38,341 bases of DNA from a virus. The stretch covers positions 1 through 38,341 of the IMG/VR virus record IMGVR_UViG_3300024520_000211; one strand, given 5' to 3'. The position numbers were made by a program, and so were the translations under genes. The notes under the pieces are model-generated. The model made no database searches and had not been told where the DNA came from. It was given only the letters and a program-made list of their open reading frames with translations. Positions 154 to 38,341 of the stretch are shown here, in pieces. The stretch's first letter is position 1, and every line of letters starts with the position of its first letter.

Positions 154-211
154 GACAGTATTTCCCTAATGATATCAATGACTTAAAGACCCATTCAATC
201 TGATGCCTTTC

Positions 212-240
212 TACCCCACCATGGGGCTTTTTACCCCACC
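212..240. promoter_or_regulatory. CCCCA/TGGGG inverted-repeat operator, upstream set
   Basis: CCCCACCATGGGG at 214-226 is an inverted repeat of CCCCA and TGGGG around 3 bp, followed by another ACCCCACC at 233-240. The same half-sites recur on the far side of the first gene (841-901). This looks like a second operator family, distinct from the TGATATCA elements. The binding protein is unknown. Confidence 0.5.
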
Positions 241-269
241 CTGAATCATAATGATATCAATGACTTGCC

Positions 270-417
270 AAATCACCCCTAAAAACTGATGCCTTAGCAC
301 CCCATCCCCTATTTCTTAACTGTCTGTAATTGCTCAAGTAAATACTTGGCACGTTGGATGCAATGTATGTTTGCATGAACGCAGCTACAACGCTGCAAAG
401 ACATAGGAGGCGCAAGT
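270..417. other. Leader upstream of the first early gene
   Basis: No gene is seen. The leader holds CCCCATCCCC (300-309), a word like the TGGGG/CCCCA operator motif, and TACTTGGCAC at 343-352, which recurs at 927-936 (ATTACTTGGCAC) ahead of the next gene. It ends with the ribosome-binding site AGGAGG (404-409) of the first early gene. The shared TACTTGGCAC word may be part of a promoter or operator used at both places. Confidence 0.4.
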
Positions 418-840
418 ATGGCGATATGCTATCGTGCTGAGGACGATGATGGTGCGGGAACGTGCGCATTACCTGAGCAATTGAAGCGTGAACGTACAAG
501 TGACAAGGTGTCCCGCAAGGGAACGGTCAAGGTACGCAAGCGAAATGGCGGCATTGTGGATTATGCTCCGGCCTATAAAACGGCTAAGGGTGCAGCAAGC
601 AAGGCTAAATTATTCTCTTACTTTGGTAATGAGAGCAATGGCGAAAACTCAAGAGTCTATCTTGCCGCAGCACAGTATGGGGACGGCAAATTCGATTGCG
701 CTTTGCACTTGCAAGGCAAGGTTATCACAAGCTTGTGTGGCGTAAACGCTACAAAAGCCATGGCTTTTGCTCGACAATACATGGGCATGGAAGCGCAAGG
801 GTACGAAGTTTGCACCTATCGCGTTGGAAGTTTCGCATAA
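418..840 (+). CDS. Unrecognised early protein, 140 aa, bracketed by operators
   Basis: First gene of the rightward block, with a strong ribosome-binding site (AGGAGG, 404-409) 8 nt before ATG. I do not recognise the family. The N-terminal third is charged and basic (residues 23-45, rich in Lys and Arg). The C-terminal part looks like a compact alpha/beta domain with cysteines near residues 98, 107 and 131. CCCCA/TGGGG operator-like repeats lie on both sides of the gene, and it is separated from the next gene by 130 bp. A regulatory or host-takeover role is therefore possible, but nothing in the protein proves it. Confidence 0.75.
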   Translation: MAICYRAEDDDGAGTCALPEQLKRERTSDKVSRKGTVKVRKRNGGIVDYAPAYKTAKGAASKAKLFSYFGNESNGENSRVYLAAAQYGDGKFDCALHLQGKVITSLCGVNATKAMAFARQYMGMEAQGYEVCTYRVGSFA

Positions 841-901
841 TGGGGCCTAAGTACCCCACATGGGGTATAAAGGCACCACTAATTGGGGCCTAATTACCCC
901 A
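841..901. promoter_or_regulatory. TGGGG/CCCCA operator cluster between first and second genes
   Basis: Two near-identical 18-mers, TGGGGCCTAAGTACCCCA (841-858) and TGGGGCCTAATTACCCCA (884-901), are inverted repeats of TGGGG/CCCCA with an 8-bp centre. Between them CCCCACATGGGG (854-865) forms a tighter inverted repeat. The second 18-mer abuts the proposed -35 at 902-907, a classic operator position. The centre spacing differs from the upstream CCCCACCATGGGG site, so the protein may read half-sites in more than one arrangement. Confidence 0.6.
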
Positions 902-929
902 TTAACATAGGCTAAGTTATTGATATTAC
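902..929 (+). promoter_or_regulatory. Candidate promoter for the main early operon
   Basis: TTAACA (902-907) is followed after 16 bp by TATTAC (924-929), with a TG at 921-922 giving an extended -10. It directly follows the CCCCA half-site at 897-901. The downstream genes from 971 onward are tightly packed and probably form one transcript. The assignment rests on consensus matching alone. Confidence 0.35.
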
Positions 930-970
930 TTGGCACTAAACATGGCACAGTAGGTGCATTAAGGTTTGGC

Positions 971-1090
971 ATGACTGAGTACGAAATTAAAGACTTACCC
1001 AAGTTGGGATGGATTACGATTCGATTTGTAGGGGAAGAAAATATCTACTTTAAGCACAACAATGTGTGGTGCTATATCAAGGTAGGCTAA
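971..1090 (+). CDS. Small unrecognised protein, 39 aa
   Basis: A short open frame, ATG 971 to TAA 1088-1090. It has many aromatic and charged residues (includes WITIRF and VWCYIKV) and predicted beta character. The ribosome-binding site is weak (AAGG at 961-964). It sits alone just downstream of the candidate operon promoter and 23 bp before the next gene. The pattern resembles short phage proteins of the type used to inhibit host enzymes, but no family is recognised. Confidence 0.55.
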   Translation: MTEYEIKDLPKLGWITIRFVGEENIYFKHNNVWCYIKVG

Positions 1091-4885: not shown

Positions 4886-5781
4886 TAACCCAAAGTGCTT
4901 TAAAGAAATACCAACAGTGTGAGCAGATGTACAAGTACAGATACGTCGATGGTTACCGCGAAGTAGTGCGGTCAGATGCCATGACGCTAGGCACTCTTGT
5001 CCACGCAGGGCTTGAGTGTTTTCTGCACGAGAAGGATGTGATACACGCAGTGTGGCACATGGAACAGGTGGCAGAGGTAGAGGAAGACCTACCTGAAACT
5101 CACCTTATCATAGACCAAGCGATGATTTTGCTGCGTGGCTACTACGAGAAATGGTATGACGCGCACCATGCAAAATACGAAACGGTGTCGGTGGAGGAGG
5201 AGTTCGAGATCTACTTGGGAGGTCAGAAGTTTGGGGGAAAAATCGATGGCCTGATTAGGGAGAAGAAAAGCCGAAGGCTTGTGCTGATTGAGCATAAGAC
5301 ATCCGGTGATAGGACTGCCACTAGCATGGGAGGAACCTATTGGAAACAGCTAAACAGCGGCATGAACATACAGCTTGTCCTGTATCAGGAGGCCATGAGA
5401 AAAAAATATGATGACGGTTCTGACAAGCCGCCAAAAATTTTGTATGACGTACTTTATAAAAACAGACCTAAGATGAAGGACTTAGAAGACATGAGAGTAT
5501 ATTATATGTCTAGCTATGCCCCCTTCTACAGAAAAGAGCTTTACTATACAGAGGAAGAACGCTATAGAGCATTGTGGGAGTTGGAAATACAAGCCAAAAG
5601 AATAAGTCAGAGAGAGAAAGACGGTTGTTGGACACGTAGTACGGCCAACTGTCGCAGTGGGTTTGGGCTATGTGCTTACTTCGATGTCTGTCAGGGGATG
5701 GCAGAACTCGCCACTGCAACTAATCTTGAGTACATGGATGACATGCATCCTGAATTAAATATAACTAAGGAGGAAAAATGA
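4882..5781 (+). CDS. RecB/Cas4-like PD-(D/E)XK nuclease with Fe-S cluster cysteines
   Basis: A 299-aa nuclease. The core is visible in order: H41 in GTLVHAGL, D122 in GGKIDGLI, E137-x-K139 in VLIEHKTSG, and QxxxY at 164-168. C13 plus C257, C264 and C270 have the spacing of the 4Fe-4S cluster in Cas4 and AddB nucleases. It probably resects double-stranded ends to make single strands for the Sak4-like protein encoded next, whose start overlaps its stop. SSB follows in the same operon. This is a recombination module, not an adaptation cas4, since no other cas genes are present. Confidence 0.9.
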   Translation: MITQSALKKYQQCEQMYKYRYVDGYREVVRSDAMTLGTLVHAGLECFLHEKDVIHAVWHMEQVAEVEEDLPETHLIIDQAMILLRGYYEKWYDAHHAKYETVSVEEEFEIYLGGQKFGGKIDGLIREKKSRRLVLIEHKTSGDRTATSMGGTYWKQLNSGMNIQLVLYQEAMRKKYDDGSDKPPKILYDVLYKNRPKMKDLEDMRVYYMSSYAPFYRKELYYTEEERYRALWELEIQAKRISQREKDGCWTRSTANCRSGFGLCAYFDVCQGMAELATATNLEYMDDMHPELNITKEEK

Positions 5782-6752
5782 GCAGGTTTTCACTGAACAA
5801 ATCAAAGGAGAAGCGCATCAAGCCACCACCTAGACTAATGATAATTGGAGATCCCGGCATAGGGAAAACCACCTTCGCCGCAAATGCGGAGAGTCCTATC
5901 ATCATTGCTACGGAGAGTGGTGCGGTTGGTACAACTGTCCCTACGCTACCCACAGATGGGGTATGTAAGACGTGGCAGGATGTGGTTGACGCAGTCAAGG
6001 TTCTTCAAGAAGAAGACCATGACTTTAAAACGGTAGCTATTGATACCCTCGATAACATGGTATCTCTTTTAGAGAGACACATATGCCACAGGGATTTTGA
6101 TGGAGTGTACAACTCCTCGCGTGGCAAAGAGGGATTTAACTCATTCGGTAAGGGGAATGCTGCGGTGGCTCAGGAACTGAAGAAGTTTCTGCATCAAGAT
6201 CTTGATGAGCTACAGTGGTGCAAGGGGATGCAAGTCATTCTTCTCTCGCACACAGGTCAAGCTAAGGTTTCGAGTAGCCTTAGCACTGATTGGACTGCTG
6301 TTGCCGCAAGCATACCCAAAAACTCACTAGCAGTAGTGAACTCTTGGTGTGACCAAATCGGACACGCTTGCACAGACGTGCGAGTCATCCAACGAGAGGG
6401 TGAGAAAAACAAGGCGCAGTCCGTTGGGTCTGACCGATGGCTTGTGTTCGAGCCTGAGCCGGGTAGGCTAGTGAAGAGTCGTGTGGGGTATGAGATGCCC
6501 AACAAGATTCCCCTGTCTTACGGTCAGTATCTAGAGGCCATGGGTGTGGACATGCAGAAGATTGAGATAGCAACCACCATGACCTTGATCGAATCCTTGG
6601 AAGAGGACGAGAGCATAGTGTCTGCAGCGCTCAAGAGCGTTCAGAAAGAACTTAAGAATGGAGAGATCGATATCATAACGCCGGAGGTTCTAAGCAGATT
6701 AGAGCTTGGCAAAATTAAACAGTTAAACAATTGGTTAAACACCAAAGCATAG
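5778..6752 (+). CDS. Sak4-like RecA-fold recombination ATPase
   Basis: A 324-aa AAA_24/Sak4-type protein. Walker A is GDPGIGKTT (residues 24-32), Walker B lies in KTVAIDTLDN with D89, and a later LLSH (about 155) resembles the sensor segment. Sak4 proteins are RecA/Rad51-like single-strand annealing or recombination proteins that work with a phage SSB, and the SSB gene follows directly. The overlap of its start with the stop of the nuclease gene supports a nuclease-recombinase-SSB unit. It would act in recombination-dependent replication or repair of phage DNA. Confidence 0.87.
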   Translation: MSRFSLNKSKEKRIKPPPRLMIIGDPGIGKTTFAANAESPIIIATESGAVGTTVPTLPTDGVCKTWQDVVDAVKVLQEEDHDFKTVAIDTLDNMVSLLERHICHRDFDGVYNSSRGKEGFNSFGKGNAAVAQELKKFLHQDLDELQWCKGMQVILLSHTGQAKVSSSLSTDWTAVAASIPKNSLAVVNSWCDQIGHACTDVRVIQREGEKNKAQSVGSDRWLVFEPEPGRLVKSRVGYEMPNKIPLSYGQYLEAMGVDMQKIEIATTMTLIESLEEDESIVSAALKSVQKELKNGEIDIITPEVLSRLELGKIKQLNNWLNTKA

Positions 6753-6761
6753 GAGAACTTA

Positions 6762-7205
6762 ATGATTACTTATCCTGATGGAAAAAGTACAGTAACTGCA
6801 ACTGCAGCTAACACCGATACACCGTTTGTATTCCCCAAGGGAGAGTACGACTATTCGGTTACCACTGTAGGATACAAAACCTACCGGACAGGAACACAGG
6901 GCATCGAGATTGAACTCGAAGGTGTCTACAGCAGCGGGAAAACTTTCCGATGCTTTGACCGGGTCTTCCTCACAGAGAATGCGATGTGGAAGTTAGACCA
7001 ATTCCTTTCAGGGTTGGGTCTAACCAAGCGTCCTGAGAACGAGGACGAGTTAAACAGCCTGACGGGACGCAGAGGTCGCGCAGTCATGGGGCCAAACGAG
7101 GATGGCTATCCAAAGGTCATCAAATATCAGGAAGAGGAACGAGTGGAGGATTGGTCAACTGTTGGCCCGCCACCCATTCAGACCTCAGAAGATGTGCCAT
7201 TCTAG
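6762..7205 (+). CDS. ssb: Phage single-stranded DNA-binding protein
   Basis: A 147-aa protein with beta-rich body and the acidic C-terminal tail ending EDVPF (143-147), the type of tip (DDxPF) by which SSBs recruit host partners. It directly follows the Sak4-like gene, the usual place for SSB partners of such recombinases. ATG follows AGGAGA. It is followed by the intergenic hairpins at 7210-7310, so it probably ends this sub-operon. Confidence 0.8.
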   Translation: MITYPDGKSTVTATAANTDTPFVFPKGEYDYSVTTVGYKTYRTGTQGIEIELEGVYSSGKTFRCFDRVFLTENAMWKLDQFLSGLGLTKRPENEDELNSLTGRRGRAVMGPNEDGYPKVIKYQEEERVEDWSTVGPPPIQTSEDVPF

Positions 7206-7327: not shown

Positions 7328-7873
7328 ATGGATTACGAAACAGAATTAAAAATGAATCCGCTTAGGGACACCTCCCTACCTGCCGCCATAGCGGAATTGG
7401 TAGATAGCGTCAAACTTTTGACGGTTGCTGTTCAAGGTCTAAAAAAAGAAAGTGGGTCAAAGAAAAAAAGTATTAGTAATAATAAAAGAATTAATTATAA
7501 AGATAATATTAATATATATAATAGCAGGGAACGTGCCATAATGGATGTGGTTGAACATTACAAAGAACTTCACCCTAAATCCAAGGCAGGATTGAATCCT
7601 AAAAGCCCAACCTACAAGGCAGTTGATGCCCGATTAACTGAGGGTTACTCAGTCATGGATCTGCAGGAGGCTATAGACGGGATGCACAAATCACCGTTCC
7701 ATTGCGGTCAGAATAAACAGGGAACCAAGTTCCTAAGCTTGGAACTTTGTATGCGTAATGCGGAACACGTTGAGTCATTCATTATGATAGAAAAAGAAAG
7801 CGGTAAGCCGAAGGTGAGCGTCAACACGCTCAAGACGGTAGAGGCAATGAAGTCTTGGTTAAAGGAGGATTAA
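7328..7873 (+). CDS. Replication initiator/organiser-like protein
   Basis: A 181-aa protein. Residues about 70-155 (VVEHYKELHP, YKAVDARLTEGYSVMDLQEAIDGM, FLSLELCMRN) follow the pattern of the conserved C-terminal domain of phage replisome organisers, which bind DNA and help load helicase. The N-terminus has a coiled stretch and a Lys/Asn-rich linker (45-65) whose DNA is conspicuously AT-rich (7440-7520). Such a patch inside an initiator gene can serve as a replication origin, as in lambda O; here that is inference. ATG follows AAGGGGGAA. Confidence 0.65.
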   Translation: MDYETELKMNPLRDTSLPAAIAELVDSVKLLTVAVQGLKKESGSKKKSISNNKRINYKDNINIYNSRERAIMDVVEHYKELHPKSKAGLNPKSPTYKAVDARLTEGYSVMDLQEAIDGMHKSPFHCGQNKQGTKFLSLELCMRNAEHVESFIMIEKESGKPKVSVNTLKTVEAMKSWLKED

Positions 7874-37863: not shown

Positions 37864-37946
37864 GTTTTTAACCTCCAAAAAATAAAACGGGCTTATGAAA
37901 TAGTGATGTGTCTGTGTGTCTGTATTCTAACTGTAGTTGGATTTTT

Positions 37947-37962
37947 GGGGGGGTGGGTCGGG
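37947..37962 (+). other. G-quadruplex-forming motif in the control region
   Basis: The + strand carries seven G, then T, GGG, TC, GGG. This satisfies a four-tract G3 quadruplex pattern with loops of 1, 1 and 2 nt. It lies just left of the first iteron and upstream of the first late gene, on the strand that would be the template for leftward transcription. A role in replication or late promoter control is inference only. Confidence 0.6.
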
Positions 37963-37966
37963 ACTT

Positions 37967-38124
37967 CCTTAATGAAATCAACCACTTAGCTAAGCCTCTA
38001 GAATCATTCATCTTTTATTTTCCTTAATGATCTTAGGCACTTGCCAACCCTTTAATATCATTGAACTTTATATTCTTTAATGATATCGTGGGTTTAAGAA
38101 CCTTAATGATATCAATAACTTGCA
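37967..38124. repeat. Iteron-like repeats, right group
   Basis: Five related elements start near 37967, 38022, 38050, 38075 and 38101. The best match the core AATGATATCAATRACTTGC, with TGATATCA as a perfect 8-bp palindrome, usually preceded by CYTT. The last four are spaced 28, 25 and 26 bp apart, close to two and a half helical turns, as expected for sites bound cooperatively by one protein. The copy at 38050 is degenerate and has lost about 3 bp; the copy at 38022 has lost the palindrome but keeps both flanks. They may be replication-initiator iterons or repressor operators; no initiator gene with a known iteron-binding fold is evident. Confidence 0.75.
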
Positions 38125-38198
38125 TAAATAGGCATAAAACCGTTAGATATCGGCTATTTACACCTATTTTAGTGAATAAACTATGTTTTTCAGGGGGT

Positions 38199-38341
38199 TT
38201 GCTGTGAATGATAATAACGGGCATTAGCTATCGCCTCTAATTGTCTGTTTTGTCTATGCTTCCCGTTCTATCCTAAATCCTTAATGATTGCAATACCTAT
38301 TTTCTTCAATGATATCATGCAGTTGTCTAAACTTCCCTTTA
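38199..38341. repeat. Right copy of the 143-bp terminal direct repeat
   Basis: This is the second copy of the end repeat. The window ends inside the repeat region, so the true end of the similarity to the right cannot be seen. In this copy GATAAT (38210-38215) is preceded by TTTTCA at 38187-38192 with a 17-bp spacer, which is a plausible rightward sigma70-type promoter reading across the junction. The mismatch at 38325 turns TTATCT into TTGTCT, in the hexamer that serves as the -35 of the promoter proposed at 125-153. Confidence 0.95.

Follow-up and report, generated by a model that had tools for sequence, protein, structure and literature searches.

TGGGG/CCCCA dyads, IHF-type sites and sigma-54-type promoters in the early control region of an uncultured phage

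The early control region and its repeats

The window, that is the whole 38,341-base record analysed here, overlaps at its ends over 143 bp (1-143 against 38199-38341) with 2 mismatches, and this terminally overlapping record is probably either a closed circle of ~38.2 kb or a terminally redundant genome. Among the products of the rightward genes, which run from 418 to ~10.9 kb, are an exonuclease, a Sak4-like annealing protein, an O-like replication initiator, a helicase-loader-like protein and a RusA-like resolvase. The leftward genes, which run from ~37.9 to 11 kb, include those for the terminase, portal, major head protein and an amidase. The divergent control region consists of 37,879-38,341 joined to 1-417. 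No tRNA or Rfam family was found in the window, and cultured phages yielded no detectable relatives of the portal or capsid and weak matches only for the terminase and Sak4. An unsystematic look revealed no integrase, so the phage is apparently lytic.

The first early gene (418-840, plus strand) encodes a 140-aa protein with no Pfam or PHROG family match and nothing significant in the PDB; its predicted fold has a pLDDT of 42.5, which makes the model unreliable. Further into the rightward operon, the O-like initiator gene lies at 7328-7873 (PHROG 16167, 1.9e-16). Antisense inside this gene are sigma-54-type matches of 11-13/13, at 7523-7539 (minus strand) in the window, 8555 in L016, 8522 in L019 and 5274 in L013, adjoining an AT repeat tract. 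The match is kept in several relatives despite amino-acid changes and is absent from L011 and L012; transcription across an origin is a possible function.

The preliminary description reported repeated inverted sites on both sides of gene 418-840. The sequences that it quoted (CCCCACCATGGGG at 214-226, TGGGGCCTAAGTACCCCA at 841-858 and TGGGGCCTAATTACCCCA at 884-901) are present, and they do lie on both sides of the gene. The repeat unit is, however, a 17-18 bp dyad, TGGGG-N7/8-CCCCA, in which one half is sometimes degenerate and of which there are six copies. Upstream of the gene these are TGATGCCTTTCTACCCCA at 201-218 (plus strand, left half degenerate), TGGGGCTTTTTACCCCA at 222-238 (plus strand), which is placed 21 bp or two helical turns start-to-start from the copy at 201, and the promoter-proximal TGATGCCTTAGCACCCCA at 287-304 (plus strand). 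Downstream, TGGGGCCTAAGTACCCCA (plus strand) begins directly after the stop codon, TGGTGCCTTTATACCCCA at 861-878 (minus strand) is an inverted copy, and TGGGGCCTAATTACCCCA (plus strand) is again promoter-proximal. Start-to-start distances within clusters are 20-23 bp for three neighbouring dyad pairs. The six-copy unit had been missed and the register misplaced: CCCCACCATGGGG is the junction of dyads 201-218 and 222-238, and the reported differences in centre spacing arise mostly because half-sites of adjacent units were paired with each other, the spacer within a unit always being 7-8 bp.

The inverted sites themselves are nevertheless real. Perfect dyads of the form TGGGG-N0-12-CCCCA number 3 in the window against a mean of 0.45 in shuffles, and at least three occurred in 0 of 100 shuffles. 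The half-site TGGGG by itself turns up about as often as chance predicts (88 occurrences against 79 expected). The extended pattern TGRNGCCTNNNNACCCCA has 5 matches in the whole record, all within the dyad region, while a reversed control pattern has none. CCCCA-N2-5-TGGGG was rejected as the unit, with a spacer varying from 2 to 5 and two occurrences in the window, a chance result given at least two in 7 of 100 shuffles. The repeat family at 201-304 and 841-901 very likely represents regulatory elements.

Sigma-54-type promoters and IHF-type sites

Past the last dyad of each cluster, at a distance of 40-41 bp, comes a sigma-54-type promoter (GG-N10-GC). P1 (TTGGCACGTTGGATGCA, 346-362, plus strand) is situated upstream of 418-840, with its -24 element 41 bp beyond the dyad at 287-304. 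Scoring 12/13, it is the best match in the genome and the sole site of at least 12/13 in 38 kb, where 0.05 are expected in window shuffles. The relative L007 (protein 92% identical) retains both elements of P1, TTGGCAC at -24 and TGCA at -12, while most of the spacer between them has changed. P2 (ATGGCACAGTAGGTGCA, 942-958, plus strand) is a weak match (10/13) conserved in L007, with its -24 element 40 bp beyond the dyad at 884-901. Its predicted start is ~2 nt before a 39-aa ORF (971-1090, plus strand), which lies directly 3' of P2 and is also conserved in L007. We infer from these sequence matches that P1 and P2 are active promoters. A promoter-like -35 noted earlier beside one of the sites does not hold up as sigma-70, as positions 1-1500 contain 2 sigma-70-like sites against 3.3 expected, and the promoters there are of sigma-54 type.

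An IHF site between upstream dyads and a sigma-54 promoter is common, not obligatory. Such a placement is described as the usual arrangement at RpoN promoters (PMC7962754, PMC6528607), and matches were scored here to the IHF consensus WATCARNNNNTTR as quoted in PMC7962754. The gap between the dyads and P2 contains a 9/9 site (TATCAATAACTTA, 913-925, minus strand) ending 16 bp before the -24 element. Its counterpart before P1 is a weak IHF-like site of 7/9 (TTACAGACAGTTA, 317-329, minus strand), which also ends 16 bp before the -24 element and occupies the same place as stronger sites in other modules. A 9/9 site lies between the distal dyads and P1 (TATCAATGACTTG, 255-267, plus strand), and another forms part of an TTAATGATATCAATGACTT repeat (TATCAATGACTTA, 173-185, plus strand). 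Two further IHF-type sites are found in the control region, AATCAACCACTTA at 37976-37988 (plus strand), on the left side when the ends are joined, and TATCAATAACTTG at 38110-38122 (plus strand). The 737-bp control region thus holds four perfect consensus sites against 0.1 per shuffle, although these lie in related repeats and are not four independent events. What had been described as a first operator family, TTAATGATATCAATGACTTG (110-266 and 38079-38122), contains perfect IHF consensus sites and may represent an IHF array rather than a set of repressor operators.

Recurrence in related phages

Relatives were retrieved by Sak4, terminase and 133-aa protein searches, and both the sites and their geometry recur among them. 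L019, of which 13.4 kb were examined, has two perfect dyads, both 41 bp before a sigma-54 element (5338-5354 before 5396 and 6491-6507 before 6549), and in L016 a degenerate dyad at 7153-7169 lies 42 bp before TTGGCACAAGACTTGCA (7212). Across five modules from few independent lineages (window/L007, L016/L073 and L019), the gap from dyad to -24 element is 41 bp for P1, 40 bp for P2, 41 and 41 bp in L019 and 42 bp in L016, and in 5 of 5 gaps 15-16 bp separate the end of the best IHF match on the minus strand from the -24 element; both regularities were first noticed in the data and then measured, not predicted beforehand. Shuffling of the window or of L019 produced no dyad with a sigma-54 element at 40-42 bp (0 of 200 shuffles). 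The IHF matches in these gaps score 7/9 for P1, 9/9 for P2, 8/9 and 8/9 in L019 and 9/9 in L016, set against genome-wide frequencies per position of 0.8% for at least 7/9, 0.1% for at least 8/9 and 0.01% for 9/9. L073, a relative of L016, repeats its IHF and promoter arrangement with a 9/9 site. In L007 the P2 IHF site is 9/9 (TATCAGTCACTTA), the P1 IHF match is weak (6/9), and the distal dyads are eroded in their half-sites (TGATGCCTTTTTACCTCA, TGGGGCTTTTTGTCCCA).

Sigma-54 matches reach 12-13/13 in L016 and L019. The 700-bp control region of L019 has seven strong matches, with a further one at 6549, and contains 6 sites of at least 12/13 where 0.004 are expected. Over eight records the strict sigma-54 pattern gave 14 matches, most of them in control regions, against 1 for a reversed control pattern. 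The genes behind the promoter modules look different from one another between relatives. A match directed at the late operon (TTGGCATTACGATTGCA or TTGGCATTACAATTGCA) is conserved in L016 and L070/L071, and the window lineage has no late-directed match of at least 8/13 upstream of its late genes. L070 (91-200) and L016 (4800-4890) also carry a 21-bp tandem array of sigma-54-like units (TTGGCAYNNNNNTTGA repeated), in which only the last unit, a perfect one, has a complete -12 element; the array may consist of decoys or of sites for polymerase loading, or be a duplication in decay. At 23-92, the close relative L021 has two dyads together with a sigma-54 match (TTGGCATGGTCATTGCA) directed at the late genes, and after them comes a GC-rich repeat stretch of a kind that the window does not have.

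The 17-mer TGGGGCTTTTTACCCCA is identical in L016 (6877-6893) and L021 (23-39, minus strand). An exact scan found it in four further phage contigs, all of which have no sigma-54 sites, so the 17-mer alone is not diagnostic. GGGTGGGGCTTTTTACCCCACCC-like sequences occur away from any sigma-54 sites in phage contigs L089 (302), L090 (1220) and L092 (6152), where they look like a hairpin or terminator element. An unrelated phage contig with its own terminase and portal (L079, 640-765) has TTGGCATGAATCTTGCT sigma-54 sites in tandem, accompanied by two TTGGGTAAAATCCCCCA dyads, and the arrangement may therefore be wider than this phage group.

Readings of the dyads and their biological meaning

IHF-assisted sigma-54 promoters, which cannot fire without an ATP-driven activator, have a textbook layout: enhancer dyads (UAS) come first, then an IHF bend and then a -24/-12 element (PMC6528607, PMC7962754). 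We consider it probable, on sequence grounds, that the dyads are enhancer sites of an IHF-assisted sigma-54 early control region and not operators of an autoregulated repressor. A sigma-54 activator, or bacterial enhancer-binding protein (bEBP), would bind the TGGGG-N7/8-CCCCA dyads, its dimers occupying dyads at an interval of about two helical turns. A bend introduced by IHF in the stretch that separates dyad from promoter would bring the activator into contact with host sigma-54 RNA polymerase waiting on the -24/-12 element, and ATP hydrolysis by the activator would open the promoter. Transcription of the 140-aa gene and the early operon would begin at P1, P2 would boost the genes downstream of it, and early transcription would be gated by the signal sensed by the bEBP. 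This explanation is favoured by the rank of P1 as top match in the genome together with the excess of sites of at least 12/13 in L019, by the fixed dyad-promoter gap and IHF offset in five modules, and by the presence of the module before different first genes in relatives together with the late-operon match in L016 and L070/L071. It is weakened by the 10/13 score of P2 and the closeness of its predicted start to ORF 971-1090, the 7/9 score of the P1 IHF site, the degraded distal dyads of L007, the occurrence of the 17-mer in contigs that have no sigma-54 sites, the after-the-fact discovery of the gap and IHF offset, and the outcome of a prokaryote-wide scan in which no genome had several strict dyad and promoter matches.

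The preliminary description saw in the flanking sites an autoregulated early gene, with its 140-aa product as the candidate ligand. The dyads do bracket the gene in the window, in L006/L020 and in L007, where a check of orthologous genes found the motif kept around the 140-aa orthologue. However, searches of L016 (39,750 bp) and L019 (37,085 bp), which keep the dyads and the same promoter spacing, found no match to the protein, so it is not needed for the sites. Family and PDB searches found no DNA-binding domain in it, though its fold is poorly predicted. Autoregulation of 418-840 via the dyads is unlikely, and self-repression by the 140-aa product carries very little probability in our estimate. 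At the level of sequence there remains support for the dyads as likely protein-binding sites that form one family and accompany promoters in the early control region. A different phage or host repressor, for which the dyads would be negative sites near the sigma-54 promoters, would by sequence alone account equally well for tandem palindromes close to a promoter. The grouping of several 17-18 bp dyads about the first early gene is also reminiscent of the lambda oR/oL operator arrays. Unlike those, the phage dyads do not overlap a sigma-70 promoter and the gene adjoining them is not conserved with them. Instead, a fixed 40-42 bp, with an IHF site in it, separates them from the -24 element downstream; from that distance a bound protein could not block polymerase directly, which leaves a repressor improbable.

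Lambda iterons are 18-bp inverted repeats at ~20-bp spacing, and the size and spacing of the dyads resemble them in a phage that encodes an O-like initiator; IHF sites are also common at origins. Dyads serving as lambda-ori-type replication iterons bound by that initiator are nonetheless very improbable: L019A has a single dyad and the L016 copies are scattered, yet the promoter distance is kept in each module. Furthermore, the dyads at 201-304 and 841-901 are neither within nor beside the initiator gene at 7328-7873, and it is this gene that contains the AT-rich tract expected of such an origin. Inverted repeats might also form hairpins or terminators in a leader RNA or after 418-840. In favour of RNA elements, 836-906 folds better than shuffles (z -3.15), position 841 is immediately 3' of the stop codon, and 214-226 gives a 5-bp terminator-like match. 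Yet 841-901 has no T-run, 196-246 has a z of -0.31 on the plus strand, terminator-like matches are at chance (2 against 1.2), and the P1 dyads lie upstream of P1 and so would not be in its RNA. A role in RNA is accordingly most doubtful.

With regard to the activator of the proposed enhancer sites, no Sigma54_activat domain was found in eight phage records, some of them fragments, and the dyad-binding activator is on this account probably a host protein. A strict dyad and promoter pattern run over 84,980 prokaryote species gave 35 single matches and no genome with several, and several of the 35 lie inside ORFs or come from unrelated clades. In the Kangiellaceae contig L033, the gene for a sigma-54-type response regulator of a two-component system is immediately followed by TGGGG-N8-CCCCA and, after a 41-bp gap, a sigma-54 promoter, a layout shared with the phage modules. 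In contrast, several orthologues keep the regulator and the downstream sigma-54 promoter with other upstream sequences that have no dyad, and the match is the only one in 369 genomes of its class. This regulator was consequently rejected as a host link, and L033 is only a lead for the activator family. In L037 a sigma-54 response regulator adjoins a dyad and promoter with a 50-bp gap. Elsewhere, in several deltaproteobacterial, myxococcal or other proteobacterial MAGs (L035, L038, L039, L042, L044, L048, L053 and L055), genes whose products have N-termini of lipoprotein or secreted type are preceded by a TGGGG-N7/8-CCCCA dyad and a sigma-54 promoter, and this set may constitute an uncharacterised bEBP regulon.

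In phages without a polymerase of their own, transcription to our knowledge normally begins from sigma-70 promoters, which are active as soon as the DNA has entered. The phage UAS sequence differs from the NtrC, NifA and PspF sites known to us. The closest parallel in organisation is an IHF-assisted sigma-54 promoter with upstream activator sites, such as pilE of commensal Neisseria, which depends on RpoN, IHF and Npa (PMC6528607) and shares with the phage modules the UAS dyads, an IHF site between UAS and promoter and a GG-N10-GC -24/-12 element. It differs in that the phage modules sit in an early control region, before phage genes. Resistance of rpoN and himA mutants to lytic Salmonella phages has been explained mainly via RpoS and glutamine, not via phage promoters (PMC8744999). 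The open-access literature searched yielded no account of early sigma-54 promoters in any lytic phage; each of the parts is known, but their employment as such a phage's early switch seems not to have been described there. We regard as evenly balanced the proposition that there is an uncultured, apparently lytic phage group whose early genes, and in some relatives late genes, are under the control of sigma-54, IHF and a host activator, including 21-bp-period tandem arrays, such that infection proceeds only when a host stress, nutrient or surface-structure signal is on. If this is true, such a phage would read the signalling state of its host before committing, and the start of infection would be tied to host cell state. 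The dyad would then be the binding site of the activator, and could be used to identify both the host clade and the signal.
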